Of a stretch of DNA of 12,364 nucleotides, positions 778-10,637 are shown in pieces (within the stretch, counting starts at the first letter, position 1; each line of letters starts with the position of its first letter). The stretch comes from Thermoanaerobaculia bacterium. Its GTDB lineage: Bacteria; Acidobacteriota; Thermoanaerobaculia; Multivoradales; UBA5704. The DNA lies in contig JAICSG010000052.1 in NCBI GenBank assembly GCA_025937035.1, positions 1 to 12,364 of the forward strand, written 5' to 3'. The notes under the pieces were generated by a model, which ran no database searches, was not told where the DNA came from, and saw only the letters and a program-made list of their open reading frames with translations. A program made the translations under genes and the position numbers.

Positions 778-2229
778 ATGAAGCGCAACGCCATGCTGGC
801 CGCCTTCTGTCTCTCCGTTGTCACCGTCCTCCCCGCGAGAGCCGCGCCGCGGTTGATCCTCGGCCCCTGCGCCGATCCGGCCCTGCCCAAGGATGCCCGG
901 TGCGGCATCTACCAGGTCTTCGAGAACCGCGCGGCGAGGAAGGGGCGCAAGATCCCCCTGCGGGTGGTGGTGTTGCCGGCCCTCGGCCCCGACCGGCGGC
1001 CCGACCCGGTCGTCGCTTTCGGGGGCGGGCCGGGCGGGTCCTCGGTGGAGGAGGGGATCTATTACAGCCAGGAGCTGGCGCCGTTGCGCCAGCATCGCGA
1101 CTTCCTGCTCGTCGATCTGCGGGGGACCGGCGGCTCGGCGCCCCTCAAGTGCCCGGAGCTCCGCGACGTCCAGGGATTCCTCGACCACTACGTGTCCGCC
1201 GACAGGGTGCGCGCCTGCGCCGGGCGGCTGCGCAAGGTCGCCGACCTCACCCAGTACACAACCGACAACGCCGTCGATGACGTGGACGAGGTGCGCGCCG
1301 CCCTCGGCTATCCCCAGGTGAGCATTATGGGGGCCTCCTACGGCACGCGAACGGTCCTGGTCTATCTGCGGCGCCATCCGGACCGGGTGCGCACCGCGAT
1401 CCTGGACGGCGTGGTGCCGACGCACGACCGGGCGCCGCTCTTTTTCGCCCGCAGCACGCAGAAGGCCCTGGACGGGCTGATCGCGGAGTGCGCGGGGGAC
1501 GCGGGCTGCGCCCGGACGTTCCCCCGTCTCAAGGAGGAGATCGCCACGGTCCTCGCGCGGGCGGAGAGGGAGCCGGTCCATGTACGGCTCCTGGACCCCA
1601 AGACGGGACGGCCCTCTGAGATCCGTCTCGCGCGCAGCGGCGTCGCCCAGACCTTGCGCTACATGCTCTACGATCCGTCCGCGGCGGCCGAGCTGCCGTT
1701 GCGGGTCCACCTGGCGGCGCAGGGGGACTGGAAGCCGCTGGCGGAGAAGGCGAGCTCCTTCGCTAAGATCATGACCTCGTTCGACAACGCCTACTTTTTC
1801 GGCGTCACCTGCTCCGAGGACGTCCCCTTCATCCGCGATCCGGAGATCCCGGCCGCGGTGGCTGGCACCTTCCTGGGCGACTTCCGCATCCGTGAGCAGC
1901 GGGCGGCCTGCGCCGGATGGCCGGCGGTGAAGGTCCCCGAGAGCTTCCTGGCGCCGGTGGTCTCGGATGTACCTTCCCTCGTCATCGCCGGCGAGCGCGA
2001 TCCGGCCACCCCGCCGACCGACAGCGAGGAGGCAGCGCGCACCCTCCGCCACAGCCGGTACGTCCTCATCCCCGACGCCGGTCACGGCACCGACGGCTTC
2101 AAGGGTCAGGAGTGTATCGACGCTCTCTACATGAAGACTGTGGAGGACGGCTCGGTGGATCGGCTCGACACCTCCTGCGTGGCGAAGATGGAGCGGCCGG
2201 CCTTCGTGCTCAGCCTGGGCGATCGTTAG
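778..2229 (+). CDS. Secreted TAP-like alpha/beta hydrolase (SlpD/E-type aminopeptidase), complete
   Basis: 483 residues, starting at an ATG 7 nt after the Shine-Dalgarno AAAGGAG (764-770). Residues 1-22 form a signal peptide (KRN, then a hydrophobic stretch ending in PARA), so the enzyme is exported. Motifs in order: GGGPGGSS (residues 82-89, oxyanion loop of the proline-iminopeptidase group), DLRGTGGS (113-120), nucleophile elbow GASYG with Ser187, the TAP-like C-terminal region with Asp408 in GERDPATPP, and His436 in AGHG. The full catalytic triad is therefore present. Several Cys pairs (for example C124/C147, C239/C244) suggest periplasmic disulphides. Known relatives release short peptides or single residues from peptide N-termini; the substrate here cannot be read. 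It is a tandem duplicate of the gene ending at 744, sharing long near-identical DNA stretches from about 1771 onward, but it stops at GDR where the other continues into a further domain. Confidence 0.93.
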   Translation: MKRNAMLAAFCLSVVTVLPARAAPRLILGPCADPALPKDARCGIYQVFENRAARKGRKIPLRVVVLPALGPDRRPDPVVAFGGGPGGSSVEEGIYYSQELAPLRQHRDFLLVDLRGTGGSAPLKCPELRDVQGFLDHYVSADRVRACAGRLRKVADLTQYTTDNAVDDVDEVRAALGYPQVSIMGASYGTRTVLVYLRRHPDRVRTAILDGVVPTHDRAPLFFARSTQKALDGLIAECAGDAGCARTFPRLKEEIATVLARAEREPVHVRLLDPKTGRPSEIRLARSGVAQTLRYMLYDPSAAAELPLRVHLAAQGDWKPLAEKASSFAKIMTSFDNAYFFGVTCSEDVPFIRDPEIPAAVAGTFLGDFRIREQRAACAGWPAVKVPESFLAPVVSDVPSLVIAGERDPATPPTDSEEAARTLRHSRYVLIPDAGHGTDGFKGQECIDALYMKTVEDGSVDRLDTSCVAKMERPAFVLSLGDR

Positions 2230-2280: not shown

Positions 2281-2523
2281 TCAGCAGGTTCCGCAGCAGC
2301 TCCAGTCCTGGGCGGTGAGGCTCGGGCACTGGGGCCCGCTGCAGGTGTTCGTCCCGCCGCCCGTGCCGGTCCCGCCGCTGTCGCAGGCGTCCGTGCAGAC
2401 GCAGGTGGTCATGTCCTCCAGCGTGCAGATGCCGCGTCCCACCACTTTCCCGAGCTGCTCGGCCTGCAGGTTGCCCAGCGTCTCACGGTTGAGGCTCAGC
2501 TTCTTCTTCAGGCGTCTCCTCAT
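2281..2523 (-). CDS. Ribosomally made peptide precursor, class I lanthipeptide-type leader
   Basis: 80 residues. The start is set by AAGGAGA (2529-2535 on the - strand) 5 nt before the ATG; longer in-frame starts have no such site. The leader, residues 1-30, reads MRRRLKKKLSLNRETLGNLQ and then AEQLGKVVGRG. This matches the LSLNRETL...L...V-G pattern of class I lanthipeptide-type leaders, with GR in place of the usual GG at the probable processing site. The core, residues 31-80, holds nine Cys (33, 41, 43, 47, 61, 66, 76, 77, 80), ten Thr and four Ser, a Gly/Thr-rich middle (50-60) and a CCGTC end. That is the composition of a peptide meant for dehydration and thioether or disulphide formation. 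No LanB/LanC/LanM, protease or exporter is visible in the window, so any modifying enzymes act from elsewhere. It is divergent from an ECF sigma factor. The leader family is well supported; the modification type is inferred. Confidence 0.82.
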   Translation of the reverse strand: MRRRLKKKLSLNRETLGNLQAEQLGKVVGRGICTLEDMTTCVCTDACDSGGTGTGGGTNTCSGPQCPSLTAQDWSCCGTC

Positions 2524-7259: not shown

Positions 7260-7739
7260 ATGGCTCGCTATCGGATGATCCTCGCCAAGGAAGATTTCAA
7301 GTTCTCCGCCGCCCACTTCACCCTCTTCAGCGACGGCCGCGCCGAGCTGCTCCACGGGCACAACTACCGGGTCCGGGTGGAGCTGGCCGGAGGGGACCTC
7401 GACGCCGAGGGGCTCCTGGTGGATATCGAGAGCTTCAAGCGGGCCCTGCGCGCCCTCTGCGCCGGCCTGGACAGCCGGACGCTGATCCCCGGCGAGAGCG
7501 CCCGCCTGCAATGGGAGCGGGAGGGGGACGCGATCGCGGTGCGCTTCGGCGAGCGGGCCTACCGCTTCCCCGCCGCCGACGCCCGGGTGCTCCCGCTCGC
7601 CAACACCTCGATCGAGCTGCTGGCCCGCATGCTCTGGCACGACCTCGCCCCCCATCTCGCGGGATCGCGGGTGGAGGCTCTCGCCGTGTCGGTGGAGGAG
7701 ACGGCGGGGCAGGAGTGCTGGTACGAGGCGGGGATCTGA
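7260..7739 (+). CDS. 6-pyruvoyl-tetrahydropterin synthase / QueD-family protein
   Basis: 159 residues, ATG start, possibly leaderless. Zinc ligands of the tunnelling-fold family are in place: His19 in FSAAHF, and His32 and His34 in HGHNY. LVDIESFK (53-60), NTSIELLARML (115-125) and a C-terminal VEETAGQECWYEAG (145-158, substrate-pocket Glu) also fit. The catalytic Cys that QueD and animal PTPS carry just before HGH is absent; instead Glu29 gives ExxHGH, the signature described for PTPS-III enzymes that make 6-hydroxymethyl-dihydropterin for folate when FolB is missing. The usual catalytic Asp-His pair (LDHR) reads LDSR (Asp71, Ser72). The protein is longer than QueD owing to an insert at about 78-112. 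Family membership is strong; whether it serves folate, queuosine or another pterin pathway is open. No other pterin gene is nearby. Confidence 0.88.
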   Translation: MARYRMILAKEDFKFSAAHFTLFSDGRAELLHGHNYRVRVELAGGDLDAEGLLVDIESFKRALRALCAGLDSRTLIPGESARLQWEREGDAIAVRFGERAYRFPAADARVLPLANTSIELLARMLWHDLAPHLAGSRVEALAVSVEETAGQECWYEAGI

Positions 7740-7746
7740 AACCTCA

Positions 7747-8850
7747 TCACCCCTGGCCGACGGTCCGCCCCTTCCAGCTCACCACCCGCCCCCGGCGCCG
7801 GTCGACGATCCCCATCCCCATCACTCCCGCCAGGACCAGGGCATCCAGCGGGTACAGCAATCCATAGATCGGCCGGTGGCCGCTCCCGGAGCGTAGGAGC
7901 ACCGAGGCGGCGGCGCCGGCGGTCCACAGGAGGGCGGCCGGCACCCAGCGGCCGGTGAGGAGCGCCCCGATCAGGGCCAGGGCGGGGAGGAGCAGGACCG
8001 CCAGGATGCCGGCCGCCGTTCCCGGGAGGTGGCTGAAGAGCGCTCCCAGGTTGCGCCGCCAGCCGCGGGCCGCCTCGCGGAAGCCCCGGTACATACGGAT
8101 GCGCAGCCCCGCGTCCCGGAGGAAGCCGGCGCGGAAGCCATGAGCGCGCAGGGCCGCGGCCACCGCCACGTCGTCGATCGGCGCCTCGCGCACGGCCTCG
8201 AAGCCGCCGCTCGCCTCCCAGGCCTCCCGGCGCAGGAGGATGAATTGGCCGTTGGCCACCGCCGGTCCGGCGCCGTCCGCCGCCGCCTCCCAATCGCCCA
8301 GAAAGGCGTCGAGGAGGGCGAAGACGGTGGGGACCAGGAGGCTCTCCCCCAGGCCGCGCGCCTCCTGGAAGCCGGCCACGGAGACCGCGTCCAGCCGCCG
8401 CTCGGCCGCCGCGGCGTGGGCCCGGGCCAGCAGCTCCGGGTCGTGGCGGGTGTCGGCGTCGGTCGAGAGAAGCCAGGGGGTCTCGATCCCTCGCGATCCG
8501 ACCCAAAGGGCGTGGACTTTCCCCGGCCAACCCTCGGGGAGGGGGCCGGCGGCGAGGAGCTCCAGGCGGGGCTCCTTCGCGGCCATCGCCGCCACGAGCC
8601 CGGCGGTGCCGTCGGTGGAGCCGTCGTCGATCACCCGTGCTTCGGGGGCCACGGTCTGGGCGAGGATCGTTGCCACGCAGGCCTCCACGTTGAGGCGCTC
8701 GTCGCGCACGGGCAGCAGGACGGTGGTCTCGGGAGGGTGGGGGAGAGGGGGCGGGAGGGCCGGAGCCCGCCGCCGCCGTTCCTCCGTCCTCAGCGCCAGC
8801 CCGAGGAGGCCGGCGCCGAGGAGGAGGGAGAGGAAAAGGCCGGGGCTCAC
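7747..8850 (-). CDS. Membrane glycosyltransferase family 2, CrtQ/HpnB-like
   Basis: 367 residues from a GTG at 8850; the upstream in-frame codon is the stop of the selenoprotein gene, so no longer start exists. N-terminal membrane anchor at about 3-20. GT-A domain: TTVLLPVRDE (42-51), IDDGSTDGT (74-82, nucleotide binding), GWPGKVHAL (107-115, a motif typical of CrtQ- and HpnB-type transferases), DAD (131-133, metal-binding DxD), a catalytic IDD at 225-227, and RGWRRNLG (262-269) in the QxxRW position. Three further hydrophobic helices lie at about 279-300, 303-318 and 331-347. Relatives glycosylate carotenoid acids or hopanoid and other lipid acceptors from nucleotide sugars at the inner face of the cytoplasmic membrane; the acceptor here is not readable. 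It begins 9 bp after selW, so the two are probably co-transcribed. It ends 7 bp from the convergent PTPS gene. Confidence 0.9.
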   Translation of the reverse strand: MSPGLFLSLLLGAGLLGLALRTEERRRRAPALPPPLPHPPETTVLLPVRDERLNVEACVATILAQTVAPEARVIDDGSTDGTAGLVAAMAAKEPRLELLAAGPLPEGWPGKVHALWVGSRGIETPWLLSTDADTRHDPELLARAHAAAAERRLDAVSVAGFQEARGLGESLLVPTVFALLDAFLGDWEAAADGAGPAVANGQFILLRREAWEASGGFEAVREAPIDDVAVAAALRAHGFRAGFLRDAGLRIRMYRGFREAARGWRRNLGALFSHLPGTAAGILAVLLLPALALIGALLTGRWVPAALLWTAGAAASVLLRSGSGHRPIYGLLYPLDALVLAGVMGMGIVDRRRGRVVSWKGRTVGQG

Positions 8851-8859
8851 GCGAGGGGG

Positions 8860-9102
8860 TCAGGCGGAGAGCCGCTTCTGCAGCTCCTGCTCGACCTCGC
8901 CGGGTTGCGGGAATCGGCCCAGTTGTTTCTTGGAGAAGACAAGATCGTTGCCCAAGGTGACCTCGAAGACACCACCCCGGCCGCGGATCAGTTGGGGAGA
9001 AACGCCGAGCTTCTGCTGGATCTCGGCCGCCAGACTGGCGGCCCGGGGGTAGTACCCTCAGCTCGTGCAGTACTCGATGGAGATGGGGCTGGTCGCGGAC
9101 AT
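8860..9102 (-). CDS. selW: Selenoprotein W-like (Rdx family) with in-frame UGA as selenocysteine
   Basis: 80 residues if the UGA at 9058-9060 is read as selenocysteine (U). ATG at 9102 with AAAGGAGG (9107-9114) 4 nt upstream. The protein begins MSATSPISIEYCTSUGYYPR; Cys12 and Sec15 form the thioredoxin-like CxxU redox motif, followed by AASLAAEI, then GRGGVFEVTLGNDLVFSKK and LGRFPQPGEV, which is the Rdx/SelW pattern through to a normal TGA at 8860-8862. Conservation on both sides of the UGA argues against a nonsense mutation, as does a perfect hairpin directly after it (9025-9043). SelW proteins are small redox proteins of beta-alpha-beta-beta-beta-alpha fold, thought to act with thiol partners; the exact role is unclear. 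It precedes a glycosyltransferase by 9 bp and is divergent from an arsR gene. selA/B/C/D must be elsewhere in the genome. Confidence 0.93.
9025..9043 (-). promoter_or_regulatory. Bacterial SECIS-like hairpin for selenocysteine insertion
   Basis: On the - strand GGCCGCCA-GTC-TGGCGGCC forms a perfect 8-bp stem with a 3-nt loop. The stem starts 15 nt after the UGA, and the loop, whose first base is G, is at +23. Bacterial SECIS elements lie inside the coding region at about this distance and carry a G at the start of the apical loop for SelB binding. The fit is good; binding is inferred. Confidence 0.75.
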
Positions 9103-9419
9103 GCTTCCTCCTTTCGGAGCCATTCTACCAGCCCGCGGGGTGCCCCTCTCCCGAGTTTCTCCAGAGAGGAATCAAATGGCGGAAAGCTCTGTTAGAGGTA
9201 TGTAAAGGTGCGTCCCGAGCCCAAAGCGGGACAGGATGCCCGAAAATTTCCCTGGAGACTGGATTTCGCCTGTGGACCTGAGTATAATCGAGATTGTTCA
9301 ACATCGCTGTTAGAATTGAGATGGTTGGGGATCTTCAGGGGAGCCTGCATTCCGTCCGACGGGTGCACCGCCGGAGGGTGTAAGGAAGTATATATTGTAT
9401 GAAACGTGGAGGTAAGAAA
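9103..9419. other. 317-bp divergent intergenic region between selW and arsR
   Basis: No convincing gene. It is visibly more AT-rich than its surroundings from about 9170 to 9440. On the - strand, TAGAAT (9122-9127) is a possible -10 for selW. On the + strand, TATAAT (9283-9288) is the best -10 in the window; TAGAAT at 9311-9316 is another. GTCCCG (9212-9217) and CGGGAC (9227-9232) form a weak inverted repeat. The AT-rich segment TATATATTGTATG (about 9389-9401), just before arsR, could hold an operator, but its symmetry is poor. Confidence 0.5.
9283..9288 (+). promoter_or_regulatory. Candidate -10 box (TATAAT) upstream of arsR
   Basis: Exact consensus TATAAT in an otherwise GC-rich sequence; the hexamer at -35 distance (TGGATT, 17-bp spacing) is a poor match. 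Transcription from here would give a 5' leader of about 125 nt before the arsR start. Confidence 0.4.
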
Positions 9420-9767
9420 ATGAAAGGTGAGGCGCCGAACATGTCATCGAAAGAAATGGCCCAGATCCGGCAGAACCTTGAGGGGACGCCGGACATCGAG
9501 GAGGCGGCGGAGCTGATGAACCTCGCCGGGAATTCCACCCGGCTCAAGCTCCTCTACCTGCTCGAGAACATGAAGGAGCTCTGCGTGTGCGATCTCGCGG
9601 AGATGCTCGGGGTTTCGGTTTCGGCCGTGTCCCAGCACCTCGCGAAGCTGAAGGCCTACGGGCTGGTCGCTCCGCGCCGGGACGCTCAGACGATCTACTA
9701 CCGTCTGACCGACCACGAGTTCAACGGCAAGCTCCGGGACAACTTCTTCAAGCAGTTTCAGGTCTGA
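9420..9767 (+). CDS. ArsR/SmtB-family metal-sensing repressor
   Basis: 115 residues. The ATG at 9420 is chosen because GGAGGT (9408-9413) sits 6 nt upstream; an ATG at 9399 lacks good spacing. It is a winged helix-turn-helix of the usual ArsR size. LAGNSTRLKLLYLLE (35-49) is the N-terminal helix pair. ELCVCDLAEMLGVS (53-66) carries Cys55 and Cys57, the CVC metal-binding site on helix 3 seen in arsenic, cadmium and lead sensors. SVSAVSQHLAKLKAYGLV (66-83) is the recognition helix, followed by the wing RRDAQTIYYRLTD. Family members repress their own operon and release DNA on metal or metalloid binding. No efflux pump or arsenate reductase lies beside it; the gene is monocistronic, ending at a strong terminator, and divergent from selW. 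Whether it senses metal, and what it regulates, cannot be read here. Confidence 0.93.
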   Translation: MKGEAPNMSSKEMAQIRQNLEGTPDIEEAAELMNLAGNSTRLKLLYLLENMKELCVCDLAEMLGVSVSAVSQHLAKLKAYGLVAPRRDAQTIYYRLTDHEFNGKLRDNFFKQFQV

Positions 9768-9920: not shown

Positions 9921-10637
9921 ATGAGCCAGCATCCGCGTCCGAAGTTCACCCACCTCGGCCACGCCACGATCCTCTGCGAGCTTCCCGGTGGGGAGACGGT
10001 GCTGATCGACCCCTGGGTGCAGAACAATCCGGCCTGTCCCCAGGAGCTGAAGGAGCTCCAGCGGGTCGACGCGATGCTCATCACCCACGCCCACGGCGAC
10101 CACATGGGGGACGCGGTCGAGATCGCCAAAAAGCACCGCCCCAAGGTCGTGGTGGCCAACTACGAGATCTGCAACTGGCTGACCGGGAAAGGGGTGGAAA
10201 ACTGCAACGGCATGAACCTGGGGGGGACCCAGGAGGTGCTGGGCATGCAGGTCACCATGGTGCGCGCCGACCACTCCTGCGGCATCTCCGACGGCGACCA
10301 GACCCTCTACGGCGGCGTGGCGTCCGGCTATATCGTGCGGCTCCAGGGGGGCTTCACCTTCTATCACGCGGGGGATACGGCCCTCTTCTCGGACATGCAG
10401 CTCTTCGGCGAGATGTACCGTCCGGAGCTCGCCTTCCTGCCGATCGGCGACTTCTACACCATGGACCCGCTGCAGGCCGCCCGCGCCTGCCGCTTCCTGG
10501 GCGTGCGCAAGGTGATCCCCATCCACTGGGGGACCTTCCCCGTGCTCACCGGCACGCCGGAGATGCTGGTGAAGGCCCTCGGCGACCACGGGAGCTCCTG
10601 CGAGGTCATCGGCCTCAAGCCGGGCGAGAGCTATTAG
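9921..10637 (+). CDS. Metallo-beta-lactamase-fold metal-dependent hydrolase, UPF0173 type
   Basis: 238 residues, with the Shine-Dalgarno GGGAGGG about 7 nt before the ATG. Motifs in order: FTHLGHATILCE (9-20); IDPW (29-32); THAHGDH (55-61), giving His56, His58, Asp60 and His61 for the two-metal site; His118 in RADHSCG; AGDT (150-153) with the bridging Asp152; and IPIHWGTFP (199-207) with His202. These match the UPF0173 (YtkL/L-ascorbate-lactonase-like) group, and the length agrees with the family. There is no signal peptide, so it should be cytoplasmic. The substrate is unknown in most members. The stop codon overlaps the stop of the convergent outer-membrane gene by 3 nt (TTAG, shared bases), leaving no room for a terminator between them. 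Confidence 0.93.
   Translation: MSQHPRPKFTHLGHATILCELPGGETVLIDPWVQNNPACPQELKELQRVDAMLITHAHGDHMGDAVEIAKKHRPKVVVANYEICNWLTGKGVENCNGMNLGGTQEVLGMQVTMVRADHSCGISDGDQTLYGGVASGYIVRLQGGFTFYHAGDTALFSDMQLFGEMYRPELAFLPIGDFYTMDPLQAARACRFLGVRKVIPIHWGTFPVLTGTPEMLVKALGDHGSSCEVIGLKPGESY

Follow-up and report, generated by a model that had tools for sequence, protein, structure and literature searches.

A SelW-like gene with an in-frame UGA codon and a SECIS-like hairpin in a Thermoanaerobaculia genome

Described SelW-like selenoproteins and the window gene

Bacterial SelW-like selenoproteins with a CxxU motif have been in print since 2005; the accessible portion of the report on Sargasso Sea data gives 48 genes and describes the family as the most abundant (PMC1088965), and the corresponding portion of a report on GOS data counts 427 selenoproteins (PMC2398784). 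In the excerpted text of another survey, SelW-like proteins are named among the families with very few or no cysteine forms in organisms that use selenocysteine (Sec), and its Table 2 assigns three families and four selenoproteins to the Acidobacteria (PMC1794560). One Acidobacteriota genome appears among the tests described in the available part of the deep-Sep paper (PMC12013277). In the sections available from three of these sources, the bacterial SelW-like selenoproteins (Rdx, PF10262, TIGR02174) share a CxxU motif, a SelW-related profile, and a UGA codon accompanied by a bacterial SECIS element (PMC1088965, PMC2398784, PMC1794560). The gene described here lies in a stretch of 12,364 nucleotides from a Thermoanaerobaculia assembly (the window) and differs from these known proteins in detail only. 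It is a well-supported further member of a protein family already known, and it does not constitute a novel type of system.

The selW-like (Rdx) gene occupies 8860..9102 on the minus strand, as defined by translation with TGA as U and by profile matches, and comprises 80 codons, including the putative Sec codon, and a TGA stop. Its coding part runs from 9102 to 8863, with the ATG at 9102 and the stop at 8862-8860, and the minus-strand product is an 80-residue protein of the form MSATSPISIEYCTSU...LSA. The in-frame UGA (9058..9060, minus strand) corresponds to residue 15 within a CTSU motif; its assignment as Sec is predicted from translation and conservation. The sequence 5' of the start codon reads AAAGGAGGAAGC-ATG and contains a Shine-Dalgarno site, AGGAGG (9107..9112, minus strand), four bases ahead of the ATG. 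Under the standard code, no open reading frame of at least 60 amino acids is listed on the minus strand across this stretch, so that routine gene calling would probably pass over the gene. The original prediction of a complete gene at this place, provided that UGA is read as Sec, is confirmed: the interval, the length, the CTSU motif, the ribosome site, and the normal stop were all correct, and only the strand had been missing. A plus-strand reading of 8860-9102 yields an unrelated-looking sequence and was dropped.

When the 80-residue protein was compared with the Rdx/SelW families, it scored above the cut-off of three models: Pfam Rdx PF10262 (73.7 bits against a cut-off of 22.6, with the best stretch at residues 7-75), and the NCBIfam models TIGR02174 CXXU_selWTH (60.8 against 34.2) and NF041051 (89.1 against 88). 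Because all three models are exceeded and homology extends to both sides of the UGA, the match is not a chance one. The last of these models, SelTWH_Campy (SelT/SelW/SelH family), is presumably centred on Campylobacterota, judging by its name; the window protein is barely above its cut-off, and equivalence is uncertain. Two solved Rdx chains can be aligned with the protein, 2fa8 (Atu0228) over residues 4-75 (E 4.2e-10) and 3dex (SAV_2001) over residues 4-78 (E 1.1e-8), and both have cysteine at the Sec position. The C12-T-S-U15 motif near the N-terminus thus falls on the CTQC of 2fa8. These two structures represent CxxC proteins, for which a SECIS element is unneeded, whereas the window protein has CxxU. 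The CTSU form is found in the window and in two relatives of the same genus; the other loci fetched often have CVVU-N.

SelA makes Sec-tRNA from Ser-tRNA, using selenophosphate from SelD. In the proposed mechanism, Sec-tRNA carried by SelB would decode the UGA at 9058-9060, and SelB would bind a hairpin located inside the coding sequence and starting 14 nt downstream of the UGA. The finished protein would be a small selenol/thiol oxidoreductase with a predicted thioredoxin-like fold, and its partner would probably be a low-molecular-weight thiol or a further redox protein; its redox role is suggested by the motif and by the family. It is very highly probable that the gene encodes a SelW-like Rdx protein with CxxU, in which the UGA is decoded as Sec through SelB and the hairpin and which acts as a small thioredoxin-like oxidoreductase. 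The sequence evidence supports the original interpretation of the UGA as a Sec codon in a SelW-like protein.

Gene neighbourhood and possible partners

The neighbourhood of the gene raises the possibility that Sec is inserted but that the protein serves a specific neighbour, such as a glycosyltransferase or a PTPS-like enzyme, rather than acting as a general thiol oxidoreductase. A GT2-family glycosyltransferase open reading frame, recognized from the list of open reading frames and a family match, lies at 7747..8850 on the minus strand; it is a neighbour that stands outside the mechanism proposed above. Its listed GTG start is 9 bases past the selW stop, so the two genes are possibly co-transcribed. 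A PTPS/QueD-like gene is found at 7260-7739 on the plus strand. Among 30 loci (own included), 12 have a PTPS/QueD-like gene no more than about 1.5 kb away from selW (the window, L015, L016, L018, L022, L029, L032, L035, L037, L038, L041, and L042), in differing arrangements, and seven have a GT2 gene beside selW. These counts would be consistent with a dedicated partner; however, the fetched flanks had no PTPS-like match in 18 of 30 cases and no GT2 match in 23 of 30, gene order can be inherited, and the CxxU motif is common to family members in other contexts. A role tied to one neighbour is accordingly considered unlikely, and a general thiol oxidoreductase remains the preferred reading.

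Several further features of the window were noted. An ArsR-type regulator (9399-9767, plus strand) and a metal-dependent hydrolase of the PRK00685 type (9921-10637, plus strand) are divergent from selW. In L015 and L018, the regulator shows identities of 100% and 93%, and it is more conserved than selW itself. Two tandem, related TAP-like alpha/beta hydrolase reading frames are present at 7-744 and 778-2229 (plus strand), the first apparently cut by the start of the window. A small reading frame at 2284-2523 (minus strand) scores 33.3 bits with the class I lanthipeptide leader model NF038153 (cut-off 22) and has a tail rich in Cys, Thr, and Ser; from these sequence features, it is likely to encode a ribosomally made peptide precursor.

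Selenocysteine machinery of the genome

The window belongs to a metagenome-assembled genome (G000) of 1254 contigs, 93.75% complete and with an estimated contamination of 4.01%. A search of the window for tRNAs found none; elsewhere in the assembly, a tRNA-Sec (selC) with anticodon UCA was found at 70.7 bits, by an Rfam model whose cut-off is also passed by five of 14 control genomes, such that matches near the cut-off may be unspecific. SelA was found at 541.9 bits (cut-off 267.9) and SelD at 342.8 bits (cut-off 125). The selD gene, located by profile match (L012, 1405-2457, minus strand), itself contains one in-frame TGA, within CATTGGUAAK, and is for this reason likely to be a second selenoprotein gene. 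The genes for tRNA-Sec, SelA, and SelD sit on contigs other than that of selW, in an assembly to which the 4.01% contamination estimate applies.

The original prediction had implied a working Sec system in the host. This was borne out for selA, selC, and selD; selB was not found in the fragmented 1254-contig assembly with either TIGR00475 or a SelB protein from the same genus; the matches obtained were IF-2, LepA, and an EF-G-type factor. EF-Tu is represented in this assembly only by two end pieces, on separate contigs, that cover 130 and 33 model residues, and IF-2 by pieces on two contigs. Since these factors are fragmented too, and since 166 of the 196 genomes, including G001 from the same genus, have a SelB above the cut-off, the absence of SelB says little, and it is probable that the organism has this factor. 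The two IF-2 pieces (L007 and L010, on contigs C687 and C447) overlap with small differences, a hint of strain mixture.

The distribution of the two genes points in the same direction. A selW match was found in 134 of the 166 genomes with SelB above the cut-off (tallied by hand). Of the 30 genomes without SelB at that level, 12 have a selW match; all of these consist of at least 350 contigs, and two of the matches are partial or weak only (G121 and G132). No selW match was found in any of the 12 SelB-less genomes with 310 contigs or fewer. From these co-occurrence counts by contig number, selW appears to track SelB wherever the assembly permits judging.

Conservation of the UGA codon and its hairpin

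The absence of SelB from the assembly, together with the break that the UGA makes in the standard reading frame, could also be taken to indicate a pseudogene or an assembly error, in which an Rdx gene that formerly had Cys would have acquired the UGA by nonsense mutation or by a miscall. This possibility can be weighed by comparison with related genomes. In a search of 196 genomes (own included) at E 1e-3 or better, a selW match was found in 146; the best 150 matches were listed, with some weaker matches beyond. An in-frame TGA is present in 147 of the 150 matches listed. The three counted without it are a CTQC protein of a different Rdx subfamily (L057, in G165), a match that begins past the motif and whose N-terminus is unreadable (L058, in G121), and a match cut by a contig edge, where the TGA is nevertheless visible (L059, in G184). 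L057 is thus the one readable case of cysteine at the Sec position among the 150 listed matches.

The sequences of 71 loci were fetched, comprising the 30 best matches (own included), 40 chosen for distant genomes or second copies, and L044; they cover 70 of the 150 listed matches, and for the remaining listed matches the information is the count of in-frame stops. The exact Sec position could be read as TGA in 69 of the 71 loci and as Cys in one (L057), and was unreadable in one (L058). The 69 TGA loci consist of 67 that matched a sequence pattern, plus L071 and L059. Because this pattern demands a stop codon, TGA is present in the 67 by construction, and the independent count is the 147 of 150 listed matches. 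The pattern left out L057, L058, L059, and L071, the last of which has the TGA and was missed; of earlier patterns applied to the 71 loci, one missed 14 and another matched only four. Downstream of the UGA, residues are also conserved, with 14 invariant columns across 33 sequences. The relatives, then, keep TGA and the sequence that follows it, rather than showing random codons at this position and no conservation beyond. A locus from a Chloroflexi metagenome-assembled genome (L044) has the UGA form as well, and this form may for that reason reach beyond the phylum of the window.

On the minus strand, the RNA 3' of the UGA folds as GGCCGCCA-GUC-UGGCGGCC (9043-9025), a SECIS-like hairpin at 9025..9043 with an 8 bp stem and the loop G-U-C at 9033-9035, recognized from the RNA fold, the alignment, and the published rule for bacterial SECIS elements; the spacing between UGA and loop is 22 nt. 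As stated in the accessible part of the source, these rules comprise a loop of 3-9 nt, an upper stem of 4-16 bp, a G in the first two loop positions, a spacing of 16-37 nt, and an MFE of at most -7.5 kcal/mol, and the window hairpin agrees with them in this form (PMC13188914). Rfam scans, one over the whole window and one over 8700-9300, listed no SECIS family and gave only weak matches to miRNAs, far short of the cut-offs. The energy of the window hairpin alone is unexceptional (z -1.72, with 10 of 200 shuffles as stable), and L057, the Cys form, reaches a comparable energy (-19.3 kcal/mol) in another shape. Support for the hairpin comes instead from the alignment of the 67 segments. Across the fetched loci the hairpin is rather uniform, of the form GCCGCC-RGUYU-GGCGG.

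In this alignment, compared with shuffles that ignore relatedness, pairing was found in 93.0% of 469 cells (86.4% in shuffles), and four of seven pairs had double-sided changes, with 21 such cells (2.4 in shuffles). Compensatory changes were of the types C-G to G-C (in nine and three sequences), C-G to U-A (in four and three), and G-C to U-A (in two). The covariation score was 0.264, against a shuffle mean of 0.142 and with none of 500 shuffles reaching it, and slid controls gave at most 0.106. Two of the five measures were less rare, the number of doubly changed pairs being reached by 15 of 500 shuffles and that of further pair types by 18 of 500, and a control slid by -1 had 18 doubly changed cells against 21 for the real alignment. 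Pairs 19-35 and 22-32 are weak, being unpaired in 24 and six of the 67 rows, respectively. All 67 segments have G as the first loop base; the second is T in 63 and G in four. At the loop codon, 62 of the 67 genes use GGT or AGT and five do not, compared with a use of these two codons at 83 of 628 Gly/Ser positions further downstream in those genes; the Fisher value of 1e-41 serves as a guide only, as the rows are related and not independent. The 67 aligned segments of UGA and hairpin form a clean natural data set on which the requirements of SelB for a bacterial SECIS element could be tested.

A conserved hairpin of this kind would be senseless in a pseudogene. With the TGA kept in nearly all listed matches and the downstream residues conserved, conservation refutes in practice a nonsense mutation or miscall, which is most improbable here. 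Decoding of the UGA as Sec is the reading that fits these data. It is likely that SelW is all but fixed in its Sec form in the phylum of the window, that Sec is the sole workable form there, with a near-invariant SECIS loop, and that nearly all copies in public protein catalogues are truncated or mistranslated. That Cys forms are so scarce in the relatives bears on the question of why Sec is kept.

Database proteins illustrate how annotation loses this gene. The Sec position is missing from 66 of 81 database relatives, most of which start internally past it (e.g., P0006, P0007, and P0050), and the 15 that reach it have W in nine cases, C in two, S in two, L in one, and R in one. This agrees with the earlier expectation that gene callers would truncate or skip the gene, and the present reading recovers a gene that is otherwise left without its Sec position or, in nine of the other 15 relatives, printed with Trp. 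The protein search reaches only relatives sharing short exact words, so distant Cys forms are under-sampled in it. The W copies (e.g., P0003) might suggest that UGA is reassigned to Trp, as in a code of type 4 and with a CTSW motif, but this is the least probable reading of all, because selW itself terminates at TGA, the genome has SelA, SelD, and a tRNA-Sec whose anticodon is UCA, non-UGA family members can have Cys at this position (YCTQC in 2fa8 and YCETC in P0012), and a SECIS-like hairpin would be unneeded. The W copies are most easily explained as UGA read by a gene caller with another code. In four relatives (P0014, P0019, P0025, and P0032), three of which come from one closely related group, the Sec position is occupied by Leu, Arg, or Ser, possibly through genuine replacement or through sequence error.

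Four of the fetched loci (L070, L071, L072, and L073) contain a second paralogue, Rdx-like and again with a UGA in frame, of the type HC[VT]SUGY..RAASLAA. The three of these four that were folded (L070, L072, and L073) show a hairpin 3' of the UGA.
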